Of a stretch of DNA of 35,103 nucleotides, positions 8,229 to 35,103 are shown in pieces (the stretch's first letter is position 1; each line of letters starts with the position of its first letter). This stretch comes from Oscillospiraceae bacterium. GTDB taxonomy: Bacteria; Bacillota; Clostridia; Oscillospirales; Acutalibacteraceae. The translations under genes were made by a program, and so were the position numbers. The stretch is taken from NCBI GenBank assembly GCA_902780565.1, contig CACZGD010000056.1, forward strand, positions 8,410 through 43,512. Reading direction: 5' to 3'. The notes beneath the pieces were generated by a model, which searched no databases, was not told the DNA's origin, and saw only the letters and a list, made by a program, of their open reading frames with translations.

Positions 8229-8356
8229 GTATGAGGCACGGAAAACGACTATCTGATCTGTTCCTACCCCCGTGTCTCATACCGTAACGAGCAGGGCAAA
8301 AATATATATTTTTGCTGAGCCGGCGGCGCGGCTCCTCTTCAGGGGCTTCCGCCCCT
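8229..8356. other. Candidate origin of transfer (oriT) with inverted repeats
   Basis: This non-coding segment has three stacked structures. GTATGAGGCACGG (8229-8241) pairs with CCGTGTCTCATAC (8270-8282), 12 of 13 positions. A perfect 20-base palindrome occupies 8296-8315. A small hairpin, AGGGGC-TTCC-GCCCCT, lies at 8341-8356. Inverted repeats upstream of the mobilization genes are typical of relaxase recognition sites. The nick site cannot be located from sequence alone. A replication origin is the alternative reading. Confidence 0.5.
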
Positions 8357-8388
8357 AAAACCCCGGTCAACACACCAAATATTGCCGC

Positions 8389-8418
8389 TTGACAAAATGC
8401 ACCCATTGGGTGTATGAT
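8389..8418 (+). promoter_or_regulatory. Promoter with embedded operator of the toxin-antitoxin pair
   Basis: TTGACA (8389-8394) and TATGAT (8413-8418) are 18 bases apart. The spacer contains the inverted repeat CACCC-ATT-GGGTG at 8400-8412. An operator between -35 and -10, directly ahead of an XRE-family gene, points to autorepression. Confidence 0.7.
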
Positions 8419-8437
8419 TGTGTCAGAGGTGAAAACT

Positions 8438-9088: not shown

Positions 9089-9099
9089 GAGGTGTTTTT

Positions 9100-9831: not shown

Positions 9832-9850
9832 ACCGTAATACCAAACCAAC

Positions 9851-9884
9851 GCACCGATGGGAGTGATCTCACCGGTGCTTTTTC
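9851..9884 (+). terminator. Terminator after the toxin gene
   Basis: GCACCG (9851-9856) pairs with CGGTGC (9873-9878) and is followed by TTTTTC. It separates the toxin-antitoxin pair from the mobilization genes. Confidence 0.65.
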
Positions 9885-9909
9885 ATTTTATCAAGAAAGG
9901 ATTGATGCT

Positions 9910-10254
9910 ATGTCAAAAAACGAAGTGGAAATCTGCTTCAAATGCAATCAGAAACAGCGTGATCAGATCAAGAAGAAAGCAAAAACCAGCGGACTGAAGC
10001 AGGGCGAATATATCCTGCAACGGGCGTTGGGCGCTGCGCCGAAGGAAACACAGCTCGGCGCGTATCTGAATCTGTACCGGAAGCTGTGCGAAATTACGAA
10101 TCTGCCGCTGTCCAACGAAACAGAAGTAAGGCTGAACGGCCTGATCGACAGTATTTACGCACGTCTCTTTGAAAGCGCGCCGCCGTCGGAAGAAATACGG
10201 ATCGAAGAGGAACAGGCTCTGCAGGACTACTACGCGGATATCGGAGCTGATTGA
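9910..10254 (+). CDS. MobC-like mobilization accessory protein
   Basis: A 114-residue protein directly upstream of, and overlapping, the relaxase. The N-terminal part (VEICFKCNQKQRDQIKKKAK, then SGLKQGEYILQRAL) has the strand-helix-helix look of ribbon-helix-helix mobilization proteins, which bind the transfer origin and help the relaxase assemble. The C-terminal half is acidic and helical. AAAGGA lies about 9 bases upstream of ATG 9910. It is short for MobC but close to the size of accessory proteins in clostridial elements. Role is inferred mainly from position. Confidence 0.65.
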   Translation: MSKNEVEICFKCNQKQRDQIKKKAKTSGLKQGEYILQRALGAAPKETQLGAYLNLYRKLCEITNLPLSNETEVRLNGLIDSIYARLFESAPPSEEIRIEEEQALQDYYADIGAD

Positions 10255-10256
10255 AT

Positions 10257-11672
10257 ATGGCGACGACAGCATTTTGGCCCGTATACAATCACCTGAAAGA
10301 AACCATCGATTACGCGGAGAACCCGGATAAGACTATCGAGCGCAAATACGTGGACGAAGACCTTTACAAAACACTTCAATACGCTGAAAACAGCGATAAA
10401 ACAGATGAGACCATGTACGTCAGCGCTGTCAACTGCCCGAAACAAAAAGCCTACGAATTTATGATGCGCACAAAACGGCGCTTCCACGAATCCGGCAAAA
10501 TCGTCGGCTACCACGGATATCAGAGCTTCGCTGCCGGAGAGGTCACAGCGGAGGAAGCGCACCAAATCGGGCTCGAGACCGCAAAGCGGATGTGGGGAGG
10601 GCAGTATGAGGTTGTTGTGACAACCCATCTGAATACCGGGCACCTGCATAACCACTTTGTCGCAAACAGCACGTCCTTCGTTACGGGCAAGAAATTCCGC
10701 AATCAGATCAAGGATCATAAGCGTTTCCGCGAGATCTCCGACGCCGTATGCCAAGAGCATAACAAATCCGTTTTGAAGGACGCACCGTTCTACGGCGGCG
10801 AGAAAGGCGCATATTGGGTTCACAAGAACGGCGGCAAGACGCACAGGGACATTCTGAAAGAGGATTTGGAGCAGTGCTTACACGAAGCGTATTCGCCGAA
10901 AGATTTGGAACGAAGACTAAATTCTATGGGATATATCTGTGATTTCAATCCGAAACATCAGCACTGGACGGTAAAGGCAGTTGATTGGGATCGCGCCGTT
11001 CGTATTGACAAACTTGGTTTTACGAAAGAACGGCTTACCGAAGAGCTCGACGGTCGCAAGCTGTGGAGCTACAGCTCAATTAACCGCGTCGGTTTTTATC
11101 TCGCAGACCATCCCATATACAAACCGAAGATTGCGCCCGTAAACAAACTCTTAAGAGAAATGGAATACGAACTTGATCGTGCGAATGGCGCCGGAGCTGC
11201 GGCGGCAACTCTCGTTGCGATACTCTTTATGATTATACTGACCATCATTCAACTGACAAGGGAGAGAGAAGACTACAGACCGCAAACGCCCGGACTGAGA
11301 AAATTAATCACCGAAGCGCCGAAAATCGAACAGGAATACAAGCTCCTCATAGACAACAACATTTCGTCTATGCAGGAGCTTTTTGATTATCACGATGGTT
11401 TAGAGGCGCAAATCAAAGCACTGGAGGCCGAACGGCAGGCAATACGCAACCGTATCCGCCGCTGCGATAACGCGGAAGAGAAAACAGATCTAAAGCAACA
11501 GGCCAAAGACATCACAAAACAGCTTATCCCTTTGCGTGAACAGAACAAAATAACTGACCGAATCGAACGCCGCGCGCCGGACTTGCAAAGAATGCTGGTC
11601 CTGGAGCGCGTTCTTGAATTACAGGCATGCACACAACAGAAAAATCAAAGAAATATAGAAAGGAGCCGATAA
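10257..11672 (+). CDS. Relaxase/mobilization nuclease (MobA/VirD2 type)
   Basis: A 471-residue relaxase that would nick the transfer origin and lead single-stranded DNA out of the cell. The start MATTAFWPVYNHLKETIDYA with YAENPDKT matches MobA/VirD2-family relaxases, and the metal-binding histidine motif is GHLHNHFVANSTSF (about residues 126-139). A membrane helix near residues 318-338 (LVAILFMIILTII) and a charged coiled-coil C-terminus follow, as in many Tn1549-related relaxases. I chose ATG 10257; a TTG two codons earlier overlaps the previous stop and is possible. It overlaps or abuts the MobC-like gene and lies 1 base before the ParB-like gene, so one operon is likely. Confidence 0.85.
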   Translation: MATTAFWPVYNHLKETIDYAENPDKTIERKYVDEDLYKTLQYAENSDKTDETMYVSAVNCPKQKAYEFMMRTKRRFHESGKIVGYHGYQSFAAGEVTAEEAHQIGLETAKRMWGGQYEVVVTTHLNTGHLHNHFVANSTSFVTGKKFRNQIKDHKRFREISDAVCQEHNKSVLKDAPFYGGEKGAYWVHKNGGKTHRDILKEDLEQCLHEAYSPKDLERRLNSMGYICDFNPKHQHWTVKAVDWDRAVRIDKLGFTKERLTEELDGRKLWSYSSINRVGFYLADHPIYKPKIAPVNKLLREMEYELDRANGAGAAAATLVAILFMIILTIIQLTREREDYRPQTPGLRKLITEAPKIEQEYKLLIDNNISSMQELFDYHDGLEAQIKALEAERQAIRNRIRRCDNAEEKTDLKQQAKDITKQLIPLREQNKITDRIERRAPDLQRMLVLERVLELQACTQQKNQRNIERSR

Positions 11673-19039: not shown

Positions 19040-20059
19040 TCAGAACTTCCCGGCCTTGGCGGCTTCCTCAACGGAAACGGCCACGGAAACGGTCATGCCG
19101 ACCATGGGGTTGTTGCCTGCGCCGATCAGACCCATCATTTCCACGTGCGCGGGAACAGAGGAGGAGCCCGCGAACTGCGCGTCGGAATGCATACGGCCCA
19201 TCGTATCGGTCATACCGTAGGAAGCGGGGCCTGCGGCCATGTTGTCGGGGTGCAGGGTACGGCCGGTGCCGCCGCCGGACGCGACGGAGAAATACTTCTT
19301 ACCGGCTTCCACGCGCTCCTTCTTGTAGGTGCCCGCCACGGGATGCTGGAAGCGGGTGGGGTTCGTGGAGTTGCCGGTGATGGAAACGTCCACGTTCTCG
19401 TGCCACATGATGGCAACGCCTTCCTGCACGTCGTTCGCGCCGTAGCAGTGCACGCGCGCGCGGGAGGACTCGGGATCCTTGGAATAGCACTTGCGGCTCA
19501 CTTCCTTGAGCTCGCCGGTGAAATAATCGTACTCGGTCTCAATGAAGGTGAAGCCGTTGATGCGGGAGATGACCTGCGCGGCGTCCTTGCCCAGACCGTT
19601 CAGGATCACGCGAAGGGGCTTCTGACGGACGCGGTTCGCCTTTTCGGCAATGCCGATGGCGCCTTCCGCGGCGGCGAAGGACTCATGACCGGCGAGGAAC
19701 GCGAAGCACTCGGTGTCCTCCTCCAGCAGCATCTTGCCGAGGTTGCCGTGACCGAGACCGACCTTGCGGCGATCCGCGACGGAGCCGGGGATGCAGAAGC
19801 TCTGCAGCCCCTCGCCGATGGCGGCGGCAGCTTCGGAGGCCTTGCGGCACCCCTTCTTGATCGCGATGGCAGCGCCCACGGTGTAGGCCCACTTGGCGTT
19901 CTCGAAGCAGATGGGCTGGATCTTCTCGACCATGTGATAGACGTCAAGACCGGCGTCCTTGGTGATCTGCTCGGCCTCCTCGATGGAGCCGATGCCGTAC
20001 TCGGCAAGCTTCGCAAGGATCTGCTTTTCTCTTCTGTCGTAAGACTCAAATGAAATCAT
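19040..20059 (-). CDS. GGGtGRT family protein
   Basis: A 339-residue soluble protein carrying the family's eponymous motif, here GGGTGRTLHPDN (about residues 265-276). Other conserved-looking stretches are LGHGNLGKMLLEEDTECFAF, HCYGANDVQEGVAIMWHENV and GLIGAGNNPMVGMTVSVA. No membrane segment or cofactor motif is obvious, although several His and Cys residues stand in conserved-looking positions. The family is named for its sequence only; function is not established. It lies 18 bases downstream of an Fe-S scaffold-type gene, a pairing seen in many anaerobes, so a shared role in iron-sulfur or sulfur metabolism is an inference. Confidence 0.88.
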   Translation of the reverse strand: MISFESYDRREKQILAKLAEYGIGSIEEAEQITKDAGLDVYHMVEKIQPICFENAKWAYTVGAAIAIKKGCRKASEAAAAIGEGLQSFCIPGSVADRRKVGLGHGNLGKMLLEEDTECFAFLAGHESFAAAEGAIGIAEKANRVRQKPLRVILNGLGKDAAQVISRINGFTFIETEYDYFTGELKEVSRKCYSKDPESSRARVHCYGANDVQEGVAIMWHENVDVSITGNSTNPTRFQHPVAGTYKKERVEAGKKYFSVASGGGTGRTLHPDNMAAGPASYGMTDTMGRMHSDAQFAGSSSVPAHVEMMGLIGAGNNPMVGMTVSVAVSVEEAAKAGKF

Positions 20060-20077: not shown

Positions 20078-20770
20078 TTATTCTTTCCGCGGATCGATCA
20101 TGCGCACGGCGTCGGCAACGCGGCCGTACTGACCGGAGGCCTTCAGCAGCGCGTCGGCGGGGCTCATGCCTGCCTTGATGAAATCCATCATCTTGCCGAA
20201 GTTCACGAACTTGTAGCCGATGATCTCGTCGTTCTCGTCAAGCGCAAGGTCGGTGATATAGCCTTCCGTCAGCTCCAGGTAACGGGGTCCCTTTTCGAGG
20301 GTGCCGTAGGTCGTGCCGACCATGGAGCGGGCGCCCTTGCCCAGATCCTCGAGGCCCGCGCCGATCACAAGACCGCCCTCGGAAAACGCGCTCTGGGTCC
20401 GGCCGTAGACGATCTGCAGGAACAGCTCGCGCATCGCGGTGTTGATCGCGTCGCACACAAGGTCGGTATTCAGGGCCTCCAGCAGGGTCAGCCCGGGCAG
20501 GATCTCCGCCGCCATCGCCGCGGAATGCGTCATGCCGGAGCAGCCGATGGTTTCCACAAGCGCTTCCTGAATGATGCCGTCCTTGACGTTGAGGGACAGC
20601 TTGCAGCCGCCCTGCTGCGGGGCGCACCAGCCGATGCCGTGCGTGTAGCCGGAAATATCTTTGATTTCGCGGGACTTGACCCATTTCGCTTCCTCAGGGA
20701 TCGGCGCCGCGCCGTGATGGACGCCCTGATGGACGGGGCACATGCCCTTGACTTCTGTTGAATAGACCAT
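20078..20770 (-). CDS. Iron-sulfur cluster assembly scaffold-like protein (NifU/IscU-like)
   Basis: A 230-residue protein with the layout of NifU/IscU-type scaffolds in the form found beside GGGtGRT genes. Candidate cluster ligands are in CPVHQG, WCAPQQGGCKLSL and the IGCSGMTHS motif, which corresponds to the scaffold's G-C-x-x-x-x-x-S region (ETIGCSGMTHSAAMAAEI). Start ATG 20770 has GGAGGAGG upstream and a promoter at 20830-20802. It is longer than IscU (about 130 residues), with an extra C-terminal part FVNFGKMMDFIKAGMSP. It forms a two-gene operon with the GGGtGRT gene. Cluster transfer targets are unknown. Confidence 0.82.
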   Translation of the reverse strand: MVYSTEVKGMCPVHQGVHHGAAPIPEEAKWVKSREIKDISGYTHGIGWCAPQQGGCKLSLNVKDGIIQEALVETIGCSGMTHSAAMAAEILPGLTLLEALNTDLVCDAINTAMRELFLQIVYGRTQSAFSEGGLVIGAGLEDLGKGARSMVGTTYGTLEKGPRYLELTEGYITDLALDENDEIIGYKFVNFGKMMDFIKAGMSPADALLKASGQYGRVADAVRMIDPRKE

Positions 20771-22808: not shown

Positions 22809-23975
22809 TTATTTGTTTTCGATCAGCGCTTCGACCTTGGTGTCGCTGACGTAGGGGACGTAGCCCTCTTCCCACGGGAAGACGTACTTCGTCAGGCCCA
22901 GCTCGTCGCGGACGGCGTTGATCTCGCCCTGCACGGACTCGTTGATCGGCACGCCGTGCGGCTCGCGGGACTTCCAGATCTCGTACTCCTTCTCACCGGC
23001 GGTGTAGATCCGCTCGGCGCCGGGCGCCTTTTTGCTGGCGCGCATGGAGCGCATGATCTCGCCGGTCTTTTTGCGGGTAATCTCTTCGCCGAGGAAGTGG
23101 TTCGTATCGATCGCGATGAAGAAGTGGCCCAGGTGATAGGGACGGATGCTGCCGTTCTCGTCCTTGCCGTCGAGGTCCTTGCCGTAAACGCCGTCCTGCA
23201 GCACGGCGGACAGCAGCTCCACGAACAGCGCGAAGCCGTAGCCCTTATAGCCGCCCAGCGCCTCGCCGATACCGCCGAGGGTGGTCAGCGCCGCGGTGCC
23301 CTGACGGATCTTTTTCAGCGCGACGCCTGCGTCGCCCTCCACCGCGTCGCCGTTCAGGTCCACGATGGTGCCGGGATGCACGGGCTCGCCGATGCGGGCG
23401 TAATACTCGACCTTGCCGTTCTGGGTGATGGAGGTGGCGGCGTCGAAGTTGAAGTCAAACGCTTCGTCGCTGGGCACGCCGAGGGTGAAGGGGTTCGTGC
23501 CGAACATGCCTTCCACGCCCCAGGTGGGCGCCACGGAGGGTCTGGCGTTGGTGCCGGTCATGCCGATGCACCCGGCTCTCGTAGCCATGGAGGTATAGTA
23601 ACCGGCGATGCCGTAGTGGCAGGAATTGCGCACCACGACCATGCCCATGCCGTACTTCTTCGCCTTGTCGATCGCCATCTGCATGGCCTTCATGCCGATG
23701 ACCTGGCCCATGCCGTTATGGCCGTCCACCACCGCGGTGGTCTCGGTCTCCTTCAGGATCTCGAAATTGGTGATCGGCTGCTGGATGCCGGCCTTGATGC
23801 GGTCAAGATAGATGGGCTTGAACCGGTTGCAGCCGTGGCTCTCGATGCCGCGCTTATCGGACTCCAGCAGGACGGACGTGCACATCTCGGCGTCCTCGCG
23901 CGGGATCCCGTAGCCGACGAACGCGTCGGTCACGAAGTCGGTGATCAGGTTCCACGGACAAACTACTTTAGGCAT
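22809..23975 (-). CDS. Malate/L-lactate dehydrogenase (Ldh_2 family)
   Basis: A 388-residue NAD(P)-dependent oxidoreductase of the Ldh_2 family, which reduces or oxidises 2-oxo/2-hydroxy acids such as malate, lactate or ureidoglycolate. Visible hallmarks are DKRGIESHGCNRF (the SHG histidine about residue 48), NSCHYGIAGYY, the nucleotide-binding segment PTWGVEGMFGTNPFTLGVPS, and GGYKGYGFALFVELLSAVL. I chose ATG 23975 because AAAGGAGA is 9 bases upstream; a TTG at 23984 would touch that site. The last 60 residues form a longer-than-usual tail (EEGYVPYVSDTKVEAL). Single-gene transcript with its own promoter and terminator. Substrate not determinable. Confidence 0.9.
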   Translation of the reverse strand: MPKVVCPWNLITDFVTDAFVGYGIPREDAEMCTSVLLESDKRGIESHGCNRFKPIYLDRIKAGIQQPITNFEILKETETTAVVDGHNGMGQVIGMKAMQMAIDKAKKYGMGMVVVRNSCHYGIAGYYTSMATRAGCIGMTGTNARPSVAPTWGVEGMFGTNPFTLGVPSDEAFDFNFDAATSITQNGKVEYYARIGEPVHPGTIVDLNGDAVEGDAGVALKKIRQGTAALTTLGGIGEALGGYKGYGFALFVELLSAVLQDGVYGKDLDGKDENGSIRPYHLGHFFIAIDTNHFLGEEITRKKTGEIMRSMRASKKAPGAERIYTAGEKEYEIWKSREPHGVPINESVQGEINAVRDELGLTKYVFPWEEGYVPYVSDTKVEALIENK

Positions 23976-24017
23976 TGGAAACAATCTCCTTTATATCGTT
24001 ATTTTTTTATCAGGCAT

Positions 24018-24045
24018 ATTGTAGCACAAATAAAACTTTTGTCAA
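24018..24045 (-). promoter_or_regulatory. Promoter of the Ldh_2-family gene
   Basis: On the minus strand TTGACA (24045-24040) and TACAAT (24023-24018) are 16 bases apart, about 43 bases before the start codon. Confidence 0.75.
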
Positions 24046-24108
24046 GGATTTTCGGGAATTTCCCCCGCTTTCGCGCGAAATCCGCGCCCCGTGTTTTTGC
24101 CGGACCGC

Positions 24109-24137
24109 GAAAAAAGGTCCCCAGAAAAACGGGGACC
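24109..24137 (-). terminator. Terminator of the NRPS operon
   Basis: GGTCCCC (24116-24122) and GGGGACC (24131-24137) form a 7-base stem with an A-rich loop, followed on the minus strand by a run of T residues. It stands 10 bases after the Lgt-like stop. Confidence 0.8.
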
Positions 24138-24146
24138 CGCGGCGGG

Positions 24147-25055
24147 TTATTTTTTTCGCCTCTTCTTGGCGTGGACGATGTTCTTTCCCTTGTTTTTCTT
24201 CCGTTTCTTCGTCTTCAGCGCTCCCAGCTTTCCGTCGAGCCACGCCTTGTTCCTGGTCTCGAAGAAGGCCGTTATGCGTTCGCCCCAGATCAGTACGGCG
24301 ACCAGATACACGGCGCCAAGCACGAAGCCGATGATGCACTGGATATGATAGCCGGTCAGCCTGCCCCACACTGCGGGATAGTCGCCTCTCCAGAATTCGG
24401 AAATAAACCGGGAGCCGCAGTACATCAGCATGAACAGCGGATACAGCAGGCCGGTTTTCCTGTTTTTCCTGCGTCCGACCAGGATCAGAACGATGAGCAT
24501 CACTACGGCGCAGGCCATTTCGATGAGCTGGACCGGGACCTGATACTGCGCCTGATTCTGATTGTAGCAGAATGCGGGGAAGGGGCCGGGGCCGGACAGC
24601 TCCACACCGTTGCAGCAGCCCTGGAAGTAGCAGGCGAGCTTCACGATGATCAGGATGACGAGCCCCAGCGGCGCGAAATAATCCTCCAGCTTCAGCGGCG
24701 AGACCCTGAGCAGCACGCCGAAAACGAACAGCAGGACCGGCACGAAGAACATATAGGGGAAATAATTTGCGGAGCGGTCTCCGAGAAACAGCAGGGAAAG
24801 GGGATTGTTCAGCGCGGCGGTGACGGCGGCCGTCAGGGCGAAGATCACCAGCGCCTCAAACCCGCAAAACAGCCACCACGCGAAGGAGAGGGGCTTTTTT
24901 AACAGAGCCTTTTCTGCGGCAACGGGGAACGTTGAGAACGTACGGTAGGTTTTCAGGCGGCAAATCAGCACGATAAGCGCCGCGACGTAGGCGATCGCGT
25001 TCAGCGGGTCGTAAAGCGCGACGGAATGCCCGAACAGGTTCAAGGTCGGATACAT
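24147..25055 (-). CDS. Lgt-family (prolipoprotein diacylglyceryl transferase-like) membrane protein
   Basis: A 302-residue protein with about seven membrane helices and a very basic tail (KKRKKNKGKNIVHAKKRRKK). The overall helix order and the motif LACYFQGCCNGVE resemble the G-C-F-x-x-G-C-C-x-G variant of the Lgt family common in Clostridia, not the GRIGNFINGE motif of classical Lgt. PVQLIEMACAVV and FISEFWRGDYP fit the later Lgt segments. Classical Lgt moves diacylglycerol from phosphatidylglycerol to a lipoprotein cysteine. This divergent form starts 3 bases after the NRPS stop, so it is surely in that operon. Inferred role: acylation or membrane handling of the peptide product; a housekeeping role is less likely here. 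Confidence 0.75.
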   Translation of the reverse strand: MYPTLNLFGHSVALYDPLNAIAYVAALIVLICRLKTYRTFSTFPVAAEKALLKKPLSFAWWLFCGFEALVIFALTAAVTAALNNPLSLLFLGDRSANYFPYMFFVPVLLFVFGVLLRVSPLKLEDYFAPLGLVILIIVKLACYFQGCCNGVELSGPGPFPAFCYNQNQAQYQVPVQLIEMACAVVMLIVLILVGRRKNRKTGLLYPLFMLMYCGSRFISEFWRGDYPAVWGRLTGYHIQCIIGFVLGAVYLVAVLIWGERITAFFETRNKAWLDGKLGALKTKKRKKNKGKNIVHAKKRRKK

Positions 25056-25058
25056 AAA

Positions 25059-28000
25059 TCAGCCTTCTTTCTCGTCGTCGGACAGCAGCGTAAAGAGCGT
25101 GTCCGCTTTTTCGGTTTGAAAATAGTGGGAATCGCACGCAATGAAGCGAATATCCCCCACGCCTTCGGCGTATCGGCTCCAGCGGTCCGCCGCGCGGCGG
25201 TAGCCGCGGGTAAAGGGATCAGTTTTGCTGAGGATCAGCCGGACCTGCACCGGCGTAAGGTCTGTTTTTTCGCTCGCGTAAGCAAAGAACTGCGCCGTAT
25301 CCCGTCGGAACCGGCGAAGCATCTCCCGGGACCGGTCCTCCGGCAAAGCGTCGTCGGATAAACCGGCGCGCCGCAGAAAGCGCAGGATCCGGCCGTCCGG
25401 CAGGGCTTTCCAGACGTTGACGGCGGTTTTTCCGGGCTTCGGGGGGACGTTGCCGCCTGCGGTCCAGTCCGTTACGACGGGACGCTCGCGGTTCAGCAGG
25501 TCCAGCAGCCGCATCGCGGTCACCGCGCCGGCGCAATGGGAGTAGAACGCCGTGGGAAGCGCGGCGGCAAGCGACCGGATCTCGTCGGCGGCGGCCGGAT
25601 ACGCCTCGTCCGGCAGCCACGGAACGTAAAACAGCGCGGTAGGGGACCGCTTTCTTTTATATACCGCGGTCAGCGCGGTGAAGGCGGCGGCGTCGCCGCC
25701 GGCGAAGGAAAAGAGCAGCAGCGCCCTTTCTGCGTTCTCCGGCCGGTACAGCGGAACAAGATAAGTATAATCCATTTTCCGCTCCCCGTCAAGTCTTTTC
25801 GCAAGCCCCGCGGGCGTGGGGTCCGCAAGGAAGTCCTCGGGCGTCAGCGCGTCCAGCGGCGGGCGGGAGAGCAGGGAGATAAGCTGCAGGCTCGTGCCGC
25901 CGAGCTCGTAAAACCCGTCCAGGCGGCCCACCTCGGGAACGCCGAGGCATTTGGCGAACGCGGCGCAGATCTCCTTTTCCGTTTCGGTCTCGGGCGGGCG
26001 GAACGCCGTTTCCGGCGCGTCCGGAAGGGGAATCGCGTCCAGCGCTTTTCGGTCGGTTTTGCCGCTCGCGTTCACGGGCATGGCTTCCAGCCGCATCAGG
26101 ACTGCCGGGACCATATAGGCGGGAAGGCGCTTGCCGAGCTGCGCGCGTACCGTTCCGGGGTCTGCCTCTCCGGTATAAAACGCGGCCAGACGGTCGGGCG
26201 ACCTCTTCGGCAGGACAGCCGCCTGCAGAACGCCGCAAACGTCTTTGATCGCGGCCTCGATCTCGCCGGGCTCGATCCGCTGCCCGTGGAGCTTGATCTG
26301 AAAATCGTTCCTTCCCGCGAAGATGAGGTTGCCGTCCTCTCTCCGGTACCCGAGGTCGCCGGTCAGATACATTTTTCCCTTCCCGTATGGGTCGGGACGG
26401 AATTTTTCCGCGGTCCGCTCCGGGTCGCCCAGATACCCCTGACCCACGTTCATTCCGGCAATGCAGATCTGCCCCGTGACGCCGGTGGGGACGGGCCGGA
26501 GATCGCGGTCCAGAATATAGATCCGCGTATTGTCGACCGGCTTGCCGATCGGCACCGGATCCCCGATCCCCGGCTCGCAGGCGAAGAACGTGACGTCCAC
26601 GGCGCATTCCGCCGGTCCGTAAAGGTTATGGAGCTTTGCGCCGTTCGGCGCGAGCGCGTAAAAGGCGTTGACCTCCGCGGCGTGCAGCGTTTCGCCGGAT
26701 AAAAATACGTTTCGCAGTGTTTTCAGCCGATCGCCGCGCGCCGGCGCCGTCTGAAGGAATTCCAGAAAGCGGTCGAACACCGTCGGCACAAAATGAAGAT
26801 CTGTCACGCCGCCTTTGCTGATCGCGTCCAGCGTCGCGCCCATGCGGTAATGGTCGCCGGGCGGCAGGATATACAGGGAAAACCCGTACATGGCGAAGCC
26901 GAAGATCTCCCACACCGAAACGTCGAAGGTATAGGGGGTCTTTCGCATCACGACCGTGTCGCGGTCGAAATACTCGTTCGCCATCCAGCCCACGCGGTTG
27001 ACGATGGAGCGGTTCGTCACCATCGCGCCCTTTGGCGTACCGGTGGAGCCGGAGGTGAAAATGACGTAAAGCGTGTCGTCGGGGACTGCGTTCGGCGCGG
27101 GGACCGCGTCCGGCAGGGGAGAAGCCAGGATCTCTTCGATCACCACCGCTTTCTCCGTCAGTCCGAGATATTTTTTCTGTCCCAGCACAAGTCCGCAGCC
27201 CGCCGTTTTCAGCAGAAGCTCGACGCGCTCCTTCGGGAAATCCGGGGAGAGCGGCAGATAGGCGTTGCCGCCGCGCACGATCCCGTAAATCGCGGCAAGC
27301 TCGGAAAAGCCCCGGTCGCACAGTACGCCGACCACCTGTTTTTTATCCCCGAGCCGCGCGCGGATGAACGCGTCGGTCTTCTCGGCGGCGGCTTGCAGGT
27401 CGCGGTAGGCGTAGTTCCTTCCCCCGTCGGAAATATGCGGCGCGTCCGGATCTCTTCTGACCTGTTCTTCAAATAAAGCGTAGACGCTTTTTTCCGGGAC
27501 CGGGACCTCGCGGAAGTCCACTTGCGCCGCCTGCTCCAGCTCGTCGGGCGGCAGCGTCCGGAGCGCGGAAAGCGGTCTGTCTCCGTCCTCGACGACCTGC
27601 TCCAGCAGGTAGAGAAAGCTTCGCAGGAGCCGCAGGACCGTTGCCTCGGGGCAGCGGTCCCGGTCGTAAACGGCGCGGACCGTATATTGCCCGTCGTGCG
27701 GATAGACCGTCAGGTGCAGACCGAATTCCGTTTTTTCCCGGAAGGATACCAGTTTTGCGTGCAGCGGCGCCGGCTGCCGGTCGGGCGAAGCGACGGCGTA
27801 ATTTTCAAATACGAACAAAACGTCCGGGGCGGTCCCGCCGAGACAGTCGCCGACAAGCTCGGCGAAGGGCAGTATGCCGAACCGGTCCGCGTCCACGGCG
27901 CCGTCCTGCGTCCGCCGCAGGAAAGCCGCAACGGTATCCCCGGGACGGGTGACAGAGCGCACGGGAACGGTATTGATAAACGGGCCGACCGTGCGAAGGA

Positions 28001-28865
28001 TATTTCCCCCGCCGCTTCTGCCGGAGATCGTTTTGGCAAACGTCACGTCGTCGGTCCCGGAAAACCGTTGCAGGGCAAGGGCGAAGCACCCCTCCAGCAG
28101 CGTATTCTCCGTCAGGCGTTCTCTTCTGGCGAAGTCCCGGACGCTGCGGCACAGCGATGCCGGGAACGGCAGCTCGGTCTGCCGCGTCTCGGAGGCGGTC
28201 GTTTTTTCCCGCCGCCCGAAAAAAGCGGCTTCTTTGTATGCGGCGAACAGCGTTTTCCAGTAGGCTCTCGCTTCGTCGCGGCTGCCGGAGCGGAGCTCCT
28301 TCACATAGGCGGAAAACGGCTTGCTTCCGGCTTTTTCCTGTATGATCTTTGACCGGATCTCTTCCTCGGTCAGACCCTCCGAGAGATCGCCGCAGTACCG
28401 GTTCAGATCCTCCGTCAGAACGGGCAGACTCCAACCGTCCAGAATGATGTGGTGTGCGTGAAACAGCAGGAACCGCGCATCGGTAAAATCAAGCACCGTA
28501 AAGCGCGCCAGCGGCTCGTTCGTGAGGTCGAAGGGACGCGTCGTCAGCGTGTCGAAGGCCGCCTCCGTCTCGGACGGCGTATACGCGTGCCCGAACCGCT
28601 TTACGGTGAATTCCGGTTCCCGGTCGCCGAGCACGACCTGTTTTGCGGCGCCGCTGGATCTCAGCACGGCAAAGGCCGTTTTGAGCGCCTCGTGACGTTC
28701 GGCAAGCAAAGAAACGGCCCGCCCCAGCAGTGGCAGAGGAAAATCGGAGGAAACGCGCAGCAGAGCAGAGACGGCGTAAAGCGCGCCGTCTTTTTTCAGC
28801 TTATCCTGGGCCAGAATGCCCTCCTGGACCGGCGTCAGTCCGTAAACGTCCCGGATCTCCGACAC
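25059..28865 (-). CDS. Non-ribosomal peptide synthetase, C-A-PCP-TE, serine-type code
   Basis: A 1268-residue synthetase. The condensation domain (residues 1-445) has HHIILDG at 138-144 with intact His and Asp. The adenylation domain (460-945) has FTSGSTGTPKG, FDVSVWE, NLYGPAE, YLTGDLG and NASGKTDRK. Mapping the ten Stachelhaus positions on GrsA gives D649, V650, W653, H692, F722, S724, L749, V757, D758, K937. This is the EntF-type serine code. The carrier domain has GGTS (Ser993). The terminal domain (1035-1268) is a thioesterase of the FSFAGG type in which the nucleophile motif is YSHCAGA, so Cys1112 replaces Ser, with Asp1217 and His1248 as likely partners. GTG start at 28865 with AAGGAGG. 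It acts after the C-A-PCP-E protein. Confidence 0.93.
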   Translation of the reverse strand: MSEIRDVYGLTPVQEGILAQDKLKKDGALYAVSALLRVSSDFPLPLLGRAVSLLAERHEALKTAFAVLRSSGAAKQVVLGDREPEFTVKRFGHAYTPSETEAAFDTLTTRPFDLTNEPLARFTVLDFTDARFLLFHAHHIILDGWSLPVLTEDLNRYCGDLSEGLTEEEIRSKIIQEKAGSKPFSAYVKELRSGSRDEARAYWKTLFAAYKEAAFFGRREKTTASETRQTELPFPASLCRSVRDFARRERLTENTLLEGCFALALQRFSGTDDVTFAKTISGRSGGGNILRTVGPFINTVPVRSVTRPGDTVAAFLRRTQDGAVDADRFGILPFAELVGDCLGGTAPDVLFVFENYAVASPDRQPAPLHAKLVSFREKTEFGLHLTVYPHDGQYTVRAVYDRDRCPEATVLRLLRSFLYLLEQVVEDGDRPLSALRTLPPDELEQAAQVDFREVPVPEKSVYALFEEQVRRDPDAPHISDGGRNYAYRDLQAAAEKTDAFIRARLGDKKQVVGVLCDRGFSELAAIYGIVRGGNAYLPLSPDFPKERVELLLKTAGCGLVLGQKKYLGLTEKAVVIEEILASPLPDAVPAPNAVPDDTLYVIFTSGSTGTPKGAMVTNRSIVNRVGWMANEYFDRDTVVMRKTPYTFDVSVWEIFGFAMYGFSLYILPPGDHYRMGATLDAISKGGVTDLHFVPTVFDRFLEFLQTAPARGDRLKTLRNVFLSGETLHAAEVNAFYALAPNGAKLHNLYGPAECAVDVTFFACEPGIGDPVPIGKPVDNTRIYILDRDLRPVPTGVTGQICIAGMNVGQGYLGDPERTAEKFRPDPYGKGKMYLTGDLGYRREDGNLIFAGRNDFQIKLHGQRIEPGEIEAAIKDVCGVLQAAVLPKRSPDRLAAFYTGEADPGTVRAQLGKRLPAYMVPAVLMRLEAMPVNASGKTDRKALDAIPLPDAPETAFRPPETETEKEICAAFAKCLGVPEVGRLDGFYELGGTSLQLISLLSRPPLDALTPEDFLADPTPAGLAKRLDGERKMDYTYLVPLYRPENAERALLLFSFAGGDAAAFTALTAVYKRKRSPTALFYVPWLPDEAYPAAADEIRSLAAALPTAFYSHCAGAVTAMRLLDLLNRERPVVTDWTAGGNVPPKPGKTAVNVWKALPDGRILRFLRRAGLSDDALPEDRSREMLRRFRRDTAQFFAYASEKTDLTPVQVRLILSKTDPFTRGYRRAADRWSRYAEGVGDIRFIACDSHYFQTEKADTLFTLLSDDEKEG

Positions 28866-28877: not shown

Positions 28878-31800
28878 TTAAAACAGGTCTTGCAGTTCCT
28901 GCAGTTCCGCCGCGGTCAGCGTGTCGTCCGAATAGCCGGAAGCCCGGACGCCGTCCGTTCCCGCGAGTTTTTTCAAATATACGGGGATCAGCCCCGCAAG
29001 CGCTCCGGCGGTCCCGCGCGGCGCGGCGCCGGCGGGCTGGAAGAATTCGAGCTGCACGCCATCCTGCGTCAAAAAGCAGTCGACGGCGATTACGCCCGGA
29101 AAGCGCGACTGCCCGGCGATCCGGCAGACCAGACGGCCGCCAAGCGTTTTTTCAAGCGTTGCGTTGTTATAAAAATTGAACAGGATCCTGCAGGACGCCG
29201 GAAGTCCCGTCTCCCGCAAAAGGCGGGCAAAGCCCGGGTCCGGCCCTTTCCGCAGCGCTTCGGCAGCGGTAAAACGCGCTTCGGCGCAGTCGGGACTCCG
29301 GAAAACGACGGGGATCAGCTTCGTGAACCAGCCCACGGTCCCGGAGACCTCGGGGGTCCTGCCGTGGCTTTCACAAAGGATCACGGCGTCGCCGCCGAGA
29401 CGTTCATAAGCGGCGAGCCCGGTCGCGGCCAGAAGCGCGTCCCGGAGCGTCTGCGGACCGTCGTTCCCGCGGAGGAAGGGCTCCAGCTCCGTACGGGGCA
29501 GAAGCGCGGCGCGCGCTTCCTCTTCCATGGTCACGTCCCGAGGGAAGGCCTTTGCCCCGCGCACGGCGGCTGCCGGGAATGCGGACTCGTTCTGCGTTTC
29601 TTCGGTCGCCCAAATTGCGTAGGGAAGCGTCGGTTCGGGCAGCCGGACGGCCCGTCCGGCCATCAGCGCGTCGATTACGGCGAACAGGTCTGTGAGCAGG
29701 ATCTCCCAGGAAACCAGATCCGTGATGAAATGATGGACCGTCAGGCGGCACAGCCCGCCCGTTTCCCGGGGGCAGAACAGCACGTCCGTCAGCGGACCGT
29801 TTTTTAGATCGAACCGCACTGTCCGGTCCTTCAGGAAAGCGACGGTCTCCGTTTCGTCGCCCACGAACGGGACGCTGCGAAAGCGGTAGGCTTCCGCACT
29901 CCCGTCTTCCCGGATCCGGAAACCGCTCTCCTCCGTGACGGCGCGAAGCATATCGTGCCGGCCGGCGACGGCGTCCAGCGCGCGCCTGAGCAGCGCTTCC
30001 TCGCAGTCCACCCGCAGAACGACGGCTTGGGAAAAGCCCTCCGCGTCGGTCGGCGCGTTCCGGAGATAGGCGCAAAGGATGGGCGGGAAGGGGCAGCGCT
30101 CCGGCGCTTGCCTGCGGACCGGTTGCGCCGGTCCGTTTATCGGGATCATTTTTTTTGCGAGGGTCCCCAGCGTCTCGCTTTTCATAATATCCGGGACCGC
30201 GACGCGATAGCCGCGTCTTTCCAACATGGAAGCCAGATGGATCGCCTTGATGGAGTCGCCGCCGAGAGAGAAGAAATTGTCGGAAACGCCGACTGCGGTC
30301 TCGCCGGTCAGCTCGGCGGCAGCCTGACAGAGGACGGTCTCCGCCGCCGTTTCGGGCGGCTGAAGGCCGACGCGTGGCGAAACCGTCTCCAAAACGGTAT
30401 CGGACAGGGCTCTGCGGTCTGTTTTACCCGAGACAGTCAGCGGCATCCGGTCGAGATGCGTAAAAGAATGCGGGATCATATAGCCCGGCAGGGTGACGGA
30501 CAGGGCGCTGCGCAGGTCATCGACCGGTCGTTTCTCCCCGGTATAAAACGCGCAAAGGAGCTGTTCGCCGTCCTTTTCCAGAACGGTCGCCGCGGCGAGG
30601 TCGATCCCGTCCAGCGCGCGGAGGGCTGCCTCGATCTCCCCGGCTTCGATGCGCTGCCCGCGGAGCTTCAGCTGGGTGTCCAGTCTGCCGATATAGGCGA
30701 CGTTCCCGTCTTCACGCAGGGCGGCAAGGTCCCCGGTGCGGTAGAGCTTCCCCGTCCCAAAAGGATTATCGACGAATTTTTCCGCCGTTTTTTCGGGGTC
30801 GCCCGGGTATCCCGCGCCGACGCCGGCGCCGGCAAGGCAAAGCTCTCCCGGGACTCCGACCGGGACGGGCTGCAGATATTTATCCAGAATATAGGCGCTC
30901 GTGTTGGCGATGGGACGCCCGAGATGTACGTCGGTTCCGGCTTCCCGCCGGAGCTCACCGCCGAGATCCCAGACCGTGCATTCGCTCGGCCCAAGGGGGT
31001 TGAAGACGTCCGCGTCGGGGGAGCGCTCGAAGATCCTTTGCAGCAGCGCCTTCGGAAGCGGCTCGCCCGAGGAGCAGACCACCTGCAGAGCCCCGAGCGC
31101 GCTGTGCGCCTCCTCCCCCTCGTAGTACAGCGAAAGCCGCGTCGGCGTGGTCATTAGGACGTCGACCCCGTATTCCGCCGCGCGGGCGAGAAACAGCTCC
31201 CGCCGGAGGCCTTCCTCCTCCCCGAACAGAACGACCGTATACCCGTTCAGCAGCGGCAGCAGGGACTCCGCGATGAAATAATCGAAGGAAACGCTGTTGA
31301 CGCAGGCGAAAACGCGGTGGTCCTGTTTTCTCAGGGCAGGCAGCGTATTGTTGTTGAGACAGAAATTCAGCAAGCCCCGTTGCAGCAGCAGGCACCCCTT
31401 GGGTTCGCCTGTGGAGCCGGAGGTGTGGATGATATACGCCGCGTCGCGGACCGCCTCCGGCGTGGGGCCCTCGGGCGAAACGGCGGTCAGCTCCCGGAGC
31501 GTCAGGACGCGCACGCCGTCGATTTTCGGTTTTTCGGGGTCGTCGCAGAGCAGGAGCTTCACGCCGCAGGCGCGGCACAGCCGGCGCAGTCTTTCCGCGG
31601 GGAAGCGCTTGTCCGTCGGCAGGAAAACCGCGCCGCGTTTCAGGACCGCGAGCTGGAGGATAAAAAGCGCTTCGCCGCGCTCCAGCCGGATCGCGGTTAC
31701 GTCTCCGGGACCGATCCCGAGGGCGGAAAGCCGATCCGCGGCGGCGTCGATCCGGTGCAGCAGCTCCCGGAAGGACAGCCGTCTGTCCCCCGCGACAAGC

Positions 31801-33155
31801 GCGGTCCGAAGCGGCAGATGCTCCGCCGTCTCCCGGAACGCCGCGTAAAGGCTTTTCTCCGGGATGGGTGCTGCCGGTCCCTCGGCGTATCGGCGCAGGA
31901 AGGCGGGCGCGTCCGGTACCAGACCCAGCCGCGTTAAAGGCAGGTCCGGCGTTTCCAGAAGGATCGCCGCGGCGGTCGTCAGGCAGGCGTGGATACGCCG
32001 GACCTCGTTCTCCGTCAGCAGAGCGGTGCGGTAAATATAATCGAGGACCAGTCCGTCCTCACCGTTGCGGTGGTTGAACACGAGCTGCAGGGTCTCCGCC
32101 TGGCAGCGGCGGGAATACTCCGTCGCCAGCATATCCGCGTCGGCGAAGATCTCGTCGGACTGGAAGTTGACAAGCACGTCGTACAGCCTGTCGGAAAAGC
32201 GTCCGGCGGCGCGGAGCTCGCGCAGGAGCTGCCCGTAGTTATAGCGCTGGTGGCGGAAAACGGACAGGATCTCGTCCGAGACCGCAAGCAGATTGTCCCG
32301 CAGGGAGGCGCGGTAGTCCGGTCGGATCAGCACCGGCGCGGTATTGACGTACATCCCGACGGTATGAAGGTCTTTTTCCGAAACGCGGCCGAGCACGGGC
32401 ATACCGATGAAAAAGGCGTCGGGGCAGCCGCGGTATTTGGCGAAAAACAGGGCGAACAGCCCGAACAGCAGGGCGGTCTCCGTCATATCGTTTTCCCGCG
32501 CGAAGGCGCTCAGCGCGCCGCGCGTTCCGGCGGACAGGGCAAGGCGCAGGAAGGCAGCGTCGTAGTTTTCGTCCGATTTCCCGGCAAACAGCACCGGCTC
32601 CGGGCAGCGGTCGAACCGTTCCAGAAAGTATGCGCGGTCTTTTGCGCAGCGTTTCGAGGTCAGATATTCATCGCGCGAGGCGGCGTATTCGACGAAGGAA
32701 TACCGCTCCGATTGCTTGCCCTCAATAATTTCGTTGAGCTGGGTCCCGATCAGGGACATGGACCAGGCGTCGCCCAGCAGATGGTGCACGCGCAGCACGA
32801 TCCCGTAGCCGCCGGGATAGACCACCGCCCGAAGGTCGCTCAGGGGGCCCTTCAGGTCAAAGGGCGTTACGGCTGCCGCCTGCCCGATCGCCTCGAGTTC
32901 CTTCACGTCGTCGACGCGCACCACCGGGATCTCCCGCGCTTCGGGGTCGGTCATATAAAGGACGGGCTCGTCCCCGGTATCGTCCAGACGCAGGTTCAGC
33001 GCGTCGTTCGTGCGGTAGATCTGCCGGATCGCGTCCACGACGCGGGCTTCCGGGCAGGGGCGCTCCACGGTCATAACGCCGCACATGACCGAAACGCTTG
33101 AGCCGATATATTTTTCCGCGTCGTAGATCAGACGCTGCGGGGCGGTCAGTTTCAT
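28878..33155 (-). CDS. Non-ribosomal peptide synthetase, C-A-PCP-E
   Basis: A 1425-residue synthetase and the likely first module. The condensation domain (1-425) has HHLLGDA at 124-130 (Gly replaced by Ala) and, being N-terminal, probably accepts an acyl starter. The adenylation domain (435-920) has HTSGSTGEPKG (577-587), GPSE, YRTGDL and SGKTDRR. Its specificity positions read D625, Y626, A629, M668, C694, S696, P720, V728, W729, K911, a code I do not recognise. The carrier motif LGGDSIKA (Ser968) is the form found before epimerases. The last 390 residues are an epimerisation domain with HHFITDLVSW (1141-1150) and ESHGRT followed by TVGWFTKL. ATG 33155 has GGAGA upstream; an ATG at 33188 sits at the predicted transcription start. 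Confidence 0.92.
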   Translation of the reverse strand: MKLTAPQRLIYDAEKYIGSSVSVMCGVMTVERPCPEARVVDAIRQIYRTNDALNLRLDDTGDEPVLYMTDPEAREIPVVRVDDVKELEAIGQAAAVTPFDLKGPLSDLRAVVYPGGYGIVLRVHHLLGDAWSMSLIGTQLNEIIEGKQSERYSFVEYAASRDEYLTSKRCAKDRAYFLERFDRCPEPVLFAGKSDENYDAAFLRLALSAGTRGALSAFARENDMTETALLFGLFALFFAKYRGCPDAFFIGMPVLGRVSEKDLHTVGMYVNTAPVLIRPDYRASLRDNLLAVSDEILSVFRHQRYNYGQLLRELRAAGRFSDRLYDVLVNFQSDEIFADADMLATEYSRRCQAETLQLVFNHRNGEDGLVLDYIYRTALLTENEVRRIHACLTTAAAILLETPDLPLTRLGLVPDAPAFLRRYAEGPAAPIPEKSLYAAFRETAEHLPLRTALVAGDRRLSFRELLHRIDAAADRLSALGIGPGDVTAIRLERGEALFILQLAVLKRGAVFLPTDKRFPAERLRRLCRACGVKLLLCDDPEKPKIDGVRVLTLRELTAVSPEGPTPEAVRDAAYIIHTSGSTGEPKGCLLLQRGLLNFCLNNNTLPALRKQDHRVFACVNSVSFDYFIAESLLPLLNGYTVVLFGEEEGLRRELFLARAAEYGVDVLMTTPTRLSLYYEGEEAHSALGALQVVCSSGEPLPKALLQRIFERSPDADVFNPLGPSECTVWDLGGELRREAGTDVHLGRPIANTSAYILDKYLQPVPVGVPGELCLAGAGVGAGYPGDPEKTAEKFVDNPFGTGKLYRTGDLAALREDGNVAYIGRLDTQLKLRGQRIEAGEIEAALRALDGIDLAAATVLEKDGEQLLCAFYTGEKRPVDDLRSALSVTLPGYMIPHSFTHLDRMPLTVSGKTDRRALSDTVLETVSPRVGLQPPETAAETVLCQAAAELTGETAVGVSDNFFSLGGDSIKAIHLASMLERRGYRVAVPDIMKSETLGTLAKKMIPINGPAQPVRRQAPERCPFPPILCAYLRNAPTDAEGFSQAVVLRVDCEEALLRRALDAVAGRHDMLRAVTEESGFRIREDGSAEAYRFRSVPFVGDETETVAFLKDRTVRFDLKNGPLTDVLFCPRETGGLCRLTVHHFITDLVSWEILLTDLFAVIDALMAGRAVRLPEPTLPYAIWATEETQNESAFPAAAVRGAKAFPRDVTMEEEARAALLPRTELEPFLRGNDGPQTLRDALLAATGLAAYERLGGDAVILCESHGRTPEVSGTVGWFTKLIPVVFRSPDCAEARFTAAEALRKGPDPGFARLLRETGLPASCRILFNFYNNATLEKTLGGRLVCRIAGQSRFPGVIAVDCFLTQDGVQLEFFQPAGAAPRGTAGALAGLIPVYLKKLAGTDGVRASGYSDDTLTAAELQELQDLF

Positions 33156-33199
33156 AGATTTCTCCGTTTTCGGGCGATAACACGCCATGTTATTATTTT

Positions 33200-33271: not shown

Positions 33272-33302
33272 ATAAAAAATGCAGGAAAGGAATCTGATAC
33301 TT

Positions 33303-34991
33303 ATGGACTATAAACGCGTGAAACAGGATTTCCGCGATGCCGACGTGACGCTGTTCGGCGCTTTGCGGGCGGCGGCGGACCGTTATCCGGGCGCGCCGGC
33401 GATCGGCTTTTTCGGCAAAAAGACGAGCTTTGCCGCGCTGATCGAGGACGTGGAGAACACCGCCCGCGCGCTGCTGAAGGCGGGCGTCGCGCCCGGGGAC
33501 GCGGTGACGTTCATGCTGCCGAACTGCCCGCAGGCGGTCAGCGTGTTTTACGCGATCAGCCGCATCGGCGCCACGGCGAACATGATCCACACGCTTTCCT
33601 CCGAGGAGGAGATCGCGTATTATCTCGATAAGGCGGACAGCCGGTTCCTGGTCACGCTCGACAGCTTCTGCCGGAAGGTCGAAAGCGCGGGCGCGCGGAC
33701 GAAGGCCGGGGTGACGGTCCTGTATACCTCCATAGCGGAGCGGATGCCGCCGCTGATCAGAATCGGCTTCGCGCTCAAAAACCGGAAAAACAAAACCCCG
33801 AAGCCCGTCGGGGCGCGCTTCCTGTCTCTCAAGGCGCTCAGGGCGGAAGCAAAAGGGCTTTCGCTGCCGGAGGTCTCCTACGACCCGGCGCACGTTGCGG
33901 CGATCCTGTATTCCGGCGGCTCCACCGGGCTGCCGAAGGGTATCTGCCTGACGGACCGGAATATCAACGAGCTCGGCATTCAGGTCGCGGACGCGGCGGG
34001 CCACCGCATTTGCCCGGGGCTCAAGTTCCTGTCCGCCATGCCGCTGTTCCACGGCTTCGGGCTGGGCGTCGGCATCCACACCTTCATATGCAACGGCGCG
34101 CAGTGCGTGCTGGTGCCGCAGTTCACGCTGGACGCCTATGTGAAAACGCTTCTGAAGGAAAAGACCAACATGCTCGCCATCGTGCCGTCCATGCTGGAGG
34201 CGTTCCTGCGTACGGACGCCTTCGACGGCAAGGACCTGTCCTTCCTCAAGGGGATCTTCAGCGGGGCGGATTCCACGCCCGTGGCGCTGCAGGAGCGCAT
34301 GAACGCCTTCCTGAAAGCGCACGGCTGCGGGGAGCAGGTGCGCGAGGGCTACGGCCTGACGGAAACCGTGACGGCCTGCTTCCTGAATCCGATCGAGCGC
34401 GTGAAGGCCGGCAGCATCGGTCTGCCGCTCGGCGAAACGAAATACCGGATCGTAAAGCCCGGCACGTTCGAGGACCTGCCGGTCGGGGAAAACGGCGAGC
34501 TGATCATTTCCGGGCCGGTGGTCATGCAGGGGTATCTGGGCGATCCCGAAGAGACGGCAAAGACGCTGCGCACCGAAAACGGCGTGACCTGGCTGTTCAC
34601 GGGGGATCTCTGCCGCCGCGATGCGGACGGCTACGTCTTCTTCGTGCAGCGGCTCAAGCGGCTGATCATCACGGCGGGCTATAACGTGTCTCCGGTCCAG
34701 GTGGAGCAGGCCGTGAACGCGGTCCCCGGCGTAAAGACCTCCTGCGTGGTCGGCGTAAAGGACAAGCTGACCGGGCAGCGCGTCGTCGCCTGCGTCGTGC
34801 CGGATGCGGAGGCGGACCCGAAAAAGCTGAGGGCGGAGATCCTTGCCGCCTGCCGGACGCGGCTGGCGCAGTACGCGGTCCCGACGAAGATCGAGTTCCT
34901 GAACGAGCTGCCGCTGACGAAGATGGGAAAGGTCAATTTTACCCAACTCGAAAAAGAACAGAATGAAAGGACGGAGAAGCAGAGTGTTTGA
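33303..34991 (+). CDS. AMP-forming acyl-CoA/acyl-ACP ligase
   Basis: A 562-residue member of the ANL adenylating superfamily. It has the phosphate-binding loop YSGGSTGLPKG (about residues 203-213), the acyl-site region MPLFHGFGLGVG, GYGLTET, the Asp of TGDLCRRD, and the C-terminal hinge and lysine motif KRLIITAGYNVSP and LTKMGKVNF. It activates a carboxylic acid, most likely a fatty acid, as an acyl-adenylate and passes it to CoA or a carrier protein. ATG 33303 has AAAGGAA upstream. It overlaps the next gene, an acyl carrier protein, by 8 bases, so acyl loading onto that carrier is the natural inference. Divergent from the NRPS operon, it may supply the acyl starter. Confidence 0.88.
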   Translation: MDYKRVKQDFRDADVTLFGALRAAADRYPGAPAIGFFGKKTSFAALIEDVENTARALLKAGVAPGDAVTFMLPNCPQAVSVFYAISRIGATANMIHTLSSEEEIAYYLDKADSRFLVTLDSFCRKVESAGARTKAGVTVLYTSIAERMPPLIRIGFALKNRKNKTPKPVGARFLSLKALRAEAKGLSLPEVSYDPAHVAAILYSGGSTGLPKGICLTDRNINELGIQVADAAGHRICPGLKFLSAMPLFHGFGLGVGIHTFICNGAQCVLVPQFTLDAYVKTLLKEKTNMLAIVPSMLEAFLRTDAFDGKDLSFLKGIFSGADSTPVALQERMNAFLKAHGCGEQVREGYGLTETVTACFLNPIERVKAGSIGLPLGETKYRIVKPGTFEDLPVGENGELIISGPVVMQGYLGDPEETAKTLRTENGVTWLFTGDLCRRDADGYVFFVQRLKRLIITAGYNVSPVQVEQAVNAVPGVKTSCVVGVKDKLTGQRVVACVVPDAEADPKKLRAEILAACRTRLAQYAVPTKIEFLNELPLTKMGKVNFTQLEKEQNERTEKQSV

Positions 34992-35103
34992 GACGCTGCG
35001 TGAAATCTATCTTGACATGACCGGGAACGAGGATCGGGACATCACGCCGAAAACCAGGATCGCGGACGGGCTGGGGCTGTCCTCCTTCGGCAAGGTGCAG
35101 CTC
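34984..35103 (+). CDS. Acyl carrier protein (5' part, cut by window end)
   Basis: The first 40 residues are present, starting at GTG 34984 with GGACGGAGAAG just upstream and overlapping the end of the ligase gene by 8 bases. The stretch RIADGLGLSSFGKVQL matches the carrier-protein signature, with the phosphopantetheine serine in LSSF in place of the more common DSL. An acidic helix precedes it (FETLREIYLDM), as in acyl carrier proteins. The C-terminal half lies beyond the window. Together with the ligase it forms a likely loading pair. Whether it feeds the NRPS is an inference from the divergent arrangement. Confidence 0.8.
   Translation, partial: MFETLREIYLDMTGNEDRDITPKTRIADGLGLSSFGKVQL

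Follow-up and report, generated by a model that had tools for sequence, protein, structure and literature searches.

What does a terminal nonribosomal peptide synthetase (NRPS) module release when its adenylation domain carries a serine code and its thioesterase (TE) a cysteine nucleophile? The question is raised by a gene, here called NRPS-B (25059..28865, minus strand), in a stretch of 35,103 nucleotides (the window) of contig CACZGD010000056.1 from an Oscillospiraceae bacterium (assembly GCA_902780565.1). The original prediction was that the cysteine TE might convert the terminal serine into a beta-lactone or free it in some other activated form. The analysis described here places the TE with those of the obafluorin synthetase ObiF1 (ObiF) and the sulfazecin synthetase SulM, and suggests that the gene set probably builds fatty-acid-capped serine peptides that are released as a reactive four-membered ring; this mode of release is predicted because two enzymes known to form such rings are relatives of the TE. 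For the product in particular, an N-acyl-peptidyl-L-serine released as its beta-lactone, we put the chances slightly above even. The rest of the unit had been overlooked in the original prediction, namely an upstream module bearing an epimerase-like domain, an acyl ligase, a truncated acyl carrier protein (ACP) and an Lgt-like gene.

Terminal module and catalytic residues

NRPS-B encodes 1268 residues, counted throughout from its GTG start codon (residue 1), ahead of which lies the Shine-Dalgarno-like sequence AAGGAGG. It is a terminal module with condensation (C, residues 5-444), adenylation (A, residues 465-936; 26058..27473) and thiolation (T, residues 965-1025) domains assigned by Pfam, followed by the TE domain (residues 1036-1268; 25062..25760, minus strand, as is the A domain). 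In the full protein the TE part gives a weak alpha/beta-hydrolase match in Pfam, and when the window TE is scanned alone Abhydrolase_6 is its sole match at an E-value of 1e-3 or better; Pfam Thioesterase is matched by 29 of the 31 members of a wider TE alignment. The protein stops straight after the TE, and Pfam finds no MbtH-like domain in it. The ten specificity positions of the A domain read DVWHFSLVDK, all ten letters being the same as in the Escherichia coli enterobactin synthetase EntF in one alignment, which bears out the serine code proposed originally. Judged by this code, the terminal residue would be one with a beta-nucleophile.

The nucleophile motif of the TE is YSHCAGA. The cysteine, aspartate and histidine first proposed as a triad are all in place, although their numbers (1112, 1217 and 1248) were one too high: the nucleophile is Cys1111 (codon 25533..25535), the triad acid Asp1216 (25218..25220) and the triad histidine His1247 (25125..25127), all on the minus strand, and their counterparts in the alignment are Cys1146, Asp1254 and His1284, the proven triad of ObiF1. 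At position I, where EntF has an aspartate, the window TE has Gly1138 (25452..25454, minus strand), the counterpart of ObiF1 Gly1173, and its acid, Asp1216, stands at position II. The absence of an acid at position I, the aspartate at position II and the catalytic histidine make up the layout of ObiF1 and SulM. The four ObiF1 residues are named in the available text of PMC6668435; among the NRPS TEs compared in that of PMC11298585, an acid at position II occurs only in ObiF1 and the SulM TE (SulTE), and the AB3403 TE combines a Cys nucleophile with a position I acid.

In an alignment of the window TE with those of 24 related loci (the window family; n=25), Cys is found in 25/25 rows, and Asp and His in 24/25 each, one of the two patterns used to fetch the loci containing YSHC and neither containing the Asp or the His. 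The full triad is present in 24/25 rows. The exception, L030 (4442-5047), is a near-identical record (98%) from the metagenome-assembled genome (MAG) RUG12348, in which the frame leaves the family after ~108 TE residues; this departure may be an assembly error or a real break. When seven distant relatives are included (31 rows), nine columns are invariant, Cys, Asp and His among them. A further comparison of six rows from the window family and 11 distant clostridial TEs with ObiF1 and SulM shows one arrangement throughout: a Cys nucleophile, position I filled by Gly or Ala, Asp in position II, and the His.

Relationship to known thioesterases

When the window TE was searched as a single sequence against all PDB chains, ObiF1 was the sole significant match (E 2.1e-12; the next match had 0.19). 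A seven-row family profile also gave ObiF1 first (1e-16) and the SulM TE 8w2c second (2.8e-9), followed by the surfactin type II TE (2.2e-8), SulM entry 8w2d (3.3e-7), RifR and others; EntF was not among the 21 PDB matches of this profile. The AlphaFold2 (AF2) model of the window TE reached a predicted local distance difference test score (pLDDT) of 94.3 and a predicted template modelling score (pTM) of 0.92, and its five best Foldseek matches were SulM and ObiF1 entries, SulM being first; for ObiF1 the match had TMq 0.82 and a root-mean-square deviation of 3.1. Alignment with ObiF and SulM together with modelling, part of the check proposed for the original prediction, came out in its favour, Cys1111 falling on ObiF1 Cys1146.

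The grouping recurs in an unrooted IQ-TREE tree of 59 TE rows, in which the SulM branch is long. A branch with 100/100 support has on one side the position-II Cys TEs, comprising 24 family rows, 11 distant clostridial TEs, ObiF1, SulM and one misfiled NRPS fragment (L078, entered as a stand-alone TE but in fact a broken NRPS end), and on the other side nine type II Ser TEs and 12 position-I TEs, the latter being EntF and 11 of the 19 aligned control TEs described below. ObiF1 and SulM form a pair with support 99/94. The window TE belongs with the ObiF1/SulM-type TEs and not with the type II or EntF-type enzymes: it is integrated after a T domain, has a Cys nucleophile and stands apart from the nine Ser type II TEs, and it has Cys and Gly where EntF-type TEs have a Ser nucleophile and Asp at position I.

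NRPS-B shares with ObiF1 its C-A-T-TE module as well as the TE triad layout. It differs in the residue loaded, which is beta-OH-p-NO2-homoPhe in ObiF and serine, by code, in NRPS-B; in having no counterpart of the MbtH-like domain of ObiF; and in its setting, an anaerobic member of the Clostridia in which a FadD-like ligase with an ACP, an upstream epimerase-like module and an Lgt-like partner are encoded nearby. SulM has the same triad layout and likewise frees a small peptide by four-membered ring closure, but its product is a beta-lactam formed from N-sulfo-2,3-diaminopropionate (N-sulfo-Dap), and its motif is Gln-Cys-Asn instead of the His-Cys-Ala of the window TE.

The EntF-like A code and domain layout raise the case of an iterative dimer or trimer lactone, in which the TE would join two or three acyl-serine units through serine esters, as EntF does in making its trilactone, and as the serrawettin W1 (serratamolide) synthetase SwrW presumably does with acyl-serine, its product being a symmetric dimer. 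SwrW, set here beside NRPS-B by description and not by TE sequence, is also a C-A-T-TE protein (PMC7767323, available text). An EntF-like synthetase was nevertheless rejected, the A code matching and the TE failing to match in profile, triad and tree, and release of this kind is considered highly improbable.

A simpler outcome is hydrolysis, the Cys TE acting like a type II hydrolase to free the linear N-acyl-aminoacyl-serine acid. It would suit those members of the same tree group that follow codes we read as Asp- or Glu-like (see below), without a beta-hydroxyl. The fold and the position of the Asp are also common to type II TEs such as RifR (PMC6668435 and PMC11298585, available text), but the stand-alone type II TEs examined all carry a Ser nucleophile (GHSMG, 9/9) and lie outside the Cys position-II group. 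Moreover, both ObiF1 and SulM turn to hydrolysis when their Cys is changed to Ser, ObiF1 C1146S giving the hydroxy acid only (PMC6668435) and SulTE C2818S hydrolysing rapidly (PMC11298585), according to the parts of these papers that are available. For this reason a cysteine suits ring closure, and hydrolytic release is regarded as unlikely.

Cysteine nucleophiles and terminal codes in clostridial relatives

As controls, 31 regions were picked, mostly by long open frame, from hits of PF00975 (Pfam Thioesterase) across the 391 class genomes searched, after exclusion of those already recognised as position-II Cys TEs. Ten of these regions gave a full A code, eight had no A domain, four an unreadable code and nine an A domain too distant from the TE. 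The triad alignment took in 19 of the 31 control TEs, in which the nucleophile is Cys (12) or Ser (7) and position I is occupied by Asp (15), Asn (1) or Ser (3). Two of the control Cys TEs follow codes that are presumably Gly-like, and one follows a code that is presumably Lys-like. Since Cys nucleophiles are this common in clostridial NRPS TEs, a Cys alone is too weak a sign and was rejected as a sufficient one, two of the control Cys TEs following the codes that we take to be Gly-like. The original step from a Cys TE to a serine beta-lactone is therefore too weakly founded on its own, although the lactone it led to has good support as a prediction. What discriminates is the triad layout, the grouping with ObiF1 and SulM by sequence, structure and tree, and the frequent pairing of such TEs with Ser/Thr codes.

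Within the window family, 15 of the 16 fully readable terminal A domains have Ser-type codes (10 being exactly that of EntF and five differing at one or two positions; the near-copy L030 was left out of the count), four partly readable codes agree with the Ser type and four further ones are unreadable. The 11 position-II Cys-TE modules outside the family carry codes that we take to be for Thr (5) and Ser (2, one partial), or to be Asp-like (2) and Glu-like (2, from one genome). Ser/Thr codes are thus found in 7/11 of these modules vs 1/10 readable controls (Fisher p 0.024), in a small sample in which rows share ancestry.

Several observations weigh against a beta-lactone product. One member of the family, L049, has in its terminal module (6941-10663) the code DYAMCSPVWK ahead of the TE, the same as in the upstream NRPS-A of the window. 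Four position-II Cys TEs (L069, L071, L083 and L086) follow codes that we read as Asp- or Glu-like, so the position-II layout alone does not mean a beta-lactone; the open frame continues well beyond the TE in all four. The Cys count among the fetched loci is partly by construction, because the search pattern contains YSHC. The first Gly of GxCxG is Ser in the window TE, and the MbtH-like domain of ObiF is missing from NRPS-B. Furthermore, the A domain of ObiF1 excludes Ser and Thr (PMC6668435, available text), and ObiF1 is thus no direct precedent for serine. A serine beta-lactone is also a strained ring and might occur as no more than an intermediate.

Proposed mechanism

The domain order, the serine code, the triad with its layout, the homology to ObiF1 and SulM and the conserved gene set can be read directly from the sequence; from these we infer the acyl starter, the epimerisation, the loading of substrates, the ring closure and the role of the Lgt-like protein. 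The FadD-like ligase and the free ACP would activate the acyl chain of a short lipopeptide assembly line, to which NRPS-A would add and epimerise one residue and NRPS-B would add L-serine. The acyl-dipeptidyl chain would pass to Cys1111 from the carrier domain of NRPS-B, and the TE would keep the thioester for attack by the beta-hydroxyl of the serine and not by water, a 4-exo-trig closure. The product released would be an N-acyl-D-aminoacyl-L-serine beta-lactone, which, being lipid-like, the Lgt-like membrane protein would then bind, modify or hand on.

The Lgt-like membrane protein

The gene for this protein (24147..25055, minus strand, 302 residues, Pfam LGT) starts 3 nt past the NRPS-B stop. 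A plus-strand open reading frame (ORF) antisense to it, 22956-24902, was treated as spurious. Clustering placed homologues in 22 of the 24 related loci and tblastn added another (23/24 in all), leaving L030 as the one locus without the gene; they lie on either strand, next to the TE end except in L050, where the neighbour is the ACP. In L046 Pfam shows the gene fused to a major facilitator superfamily (MFS) domain, as sequence likeness suggests for L039, and an MFS gene adjoins it in four loci (identified by Pfam in L034 and by similarity in L035, L038 and L053).

The model of the window protein (pLDDT 91) has E. coli Lgt (5azb) as its one good Foldseek match (TM about 0.5, E 1.8e-5; every other match had an E-value above 0.6). 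It keeps Tyr26, Gln199, Tyr235, Arg239 and Glu243 of E. coli Lgt, whereas Phe, Lys, Cys and Cys, respectively, stand in place of His103, Arg143, Asn146 and Glu151. In 23 aligned Lgt-like rows the position of His103 holds Phe (19), Tyr (3) or His (1), and that of Arg143 Lys (22) or Arg (1). E. coli mutants at His103, Arg143 and Glu151 are inactive according to the available text of PMC4728403. The window's genome has other genes of this kind elsewhere, one of which scores high as an Lgt (E 9.1e-73), while two more are Lgt-like. An ordinary Lgt lying downstream by chance was rejected, as the gene is kept in 23/24 loci with altered catalytic residues.

Such a constant partner suggests another end for the pathway, lipid synthesis, in which the Lgt-like protein would transfer or join the TE-bound acyl-seryl unit, or the beta-lactone, to a membrane phospholipid to give an aminolipid. 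The position of the gene beside the TE, the MFS fusions and the modelled resemblance to E. coli Lgt alone are in line with this, as is L093, where an Lgt-like gene (LGT by Pfam) follows a distant Ser-coded Cys-TE gene and has neighbours of its own named by eye as two ketosynthases, an ACP and a reductase-like gene. The replacement of residues at which E. coli Lgt mutants are inactive speaks against it, however, and the Lgt-like profile matched only this one of the 10 distant Cys-TE loci, the other Ser-coded one, L092, having no match in the stretch fetched. Lipid synthesis as the end of the pathway is accordingly thought quite improbable.

Other genes of the cluster

NRPS-A (28878..33188, minus strand, 1436 residues) has C, A and T domains and an epimerase-like domain, its A code being DYAMCSPVWK. 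The last domain contains HHFITDLVSW, ESHGR and GTVGWFT, which we take to be epimerase motifs. Divergent from NRPS-A is the gene of the FadD-like adenosine monophosphate (AMP)-forming acyl ligase (33279..34991, plus strand), nearest to long-chain acyl-CoA ligase models, with all scores shown under the curated cut-offs. The ACP start (34984..35103, plus strand, 40 residues) was recognised by eye from its likeness to the ACPs of relatives, its reading frame taking up the last 120 bases and being cut by the end of the window, which is also the end of the contig; this stub has no Pfam match, and in one relative Pfam recognises the ACP beside the ligase as a PP-binding protein. All loci that include the 5' end of the NRPS (9/9) have an AMP-ligase-like ORF upstream, that of L042 being a cut fragment with a weak match. 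The NRPSs of the family have one to four modules, several being cut by contig ends.

Further features were seen in single loci. In L037 (2269-6271) two overlapping frames, 2269-4578 and 4364-6271, share the NRPS gene, which is broken or misassembled. Related proteins are encoded upstream of the ligase in L044 (3-1442) and L064 (6218-7546); that of L044 has a weak metallo-beta-lactamase-superfamily match (E about 4e-4, under the cut-off), and a role as a self-protection hydrolase is conceivable. The L049 cluster holds a flavin mononucleotide (FMN)-reductase-like gene adjoining a gene for a protein of 170 residues, both of which are also present in L064. Transporter-like sequence was seen by eye beyond the TE in L071. 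Genes for 4'-phosphopantetheinyl transferases lie near Cys-TE NRPS genes in L042 and L087 (Pfam) and in L047, L052 and L091 (similarity). In the window itself, a protein of the GGGtGRT family (PF14057, E 6e-186) is encoded at 19040-20059, next to a same-strand gene for 230 residues (20078-20770), and no link was seen between these genes and the NRPS cluster.

Distribution and significance

The TE profile gave hits in 8/26 genomes of the genus (9 copies; this search carried no YSHC pattern), 2/295 of the order, 20/391 of the class and 6/398 of the phylum, the window's own genome being counted in each total. The 21 further loci examined from the order, class and phylum searches comprise nine stand-alone Ser-type TEs, 11 NRPS-integrated Cys TEs and one broken NRPS end. 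All 24 family loci are titled as MAGs of Clostridia-type bacteria, and 15/24 titles name a ruminant gut compartment.

A separate branch of position-II Cys-TE NRPSs, L087-L091 (genomes G267, G685, G652, G970 and G715), is presumably Thr-coded. Genes for a histidine kinase and a response regulator directly follow the NRPS gene in 5/5 of these loci. Pfam, applied to three of the five kinases and to three of the five regulators, shows a seven-transmembrane (7TM) sensor region in each of these kinases and Response_reg and HD domains in each of these regulators. The product of this branch may be a signal.

No publication on this TE/NRPS family was found in the literature searched, most subscription journals and all preprints lying outside its coverage. 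The SulM paper (PMC11298585) includes genome mining for such TEs, and its main text, as far as available, is without the words Clostridi- or Firmicutes. What is known is the mechanism of the ObiF and SulM TEs; what would be new is its predicted use on plain serine, in a lineage of anaerobes and with an Lgt-like partner. Judging from the available text of PMC6668435 and PMC11298585, no NRPS TE of known structure other than ObiF1 and SulM has this layout, and the ring that each of the two closes is four-membered and formed on an unusual amino acid.

The same type of TE acting on ordinary Ser or Thr would provide a genetic rule for finding beta-lactone genes, and the family would also offer a tractable enzyme for producing serine beta-lactones and, in the ruminant gut, a source of reactive lipopeptides that can be tested. 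A wider view, which is rather speculative and on present evidence improbable, is that the Clostridia hold a large class of NRPS-made N-acyl-Ser and N-acyl-Thr beta-lactones, which the Thr branch would use as secreted signals and the Ser branch of the ruminant gut would pass to an Lgt-like enzyme that makes an envelope lipid or handles the lactone. If true, such beta-lactones would be formally contracted relatives of the acyl-homoserine lactones. The near-constant Lgt-like partner and the sensor kinase of the Thr branch point to membrane or signalling roles for these products.

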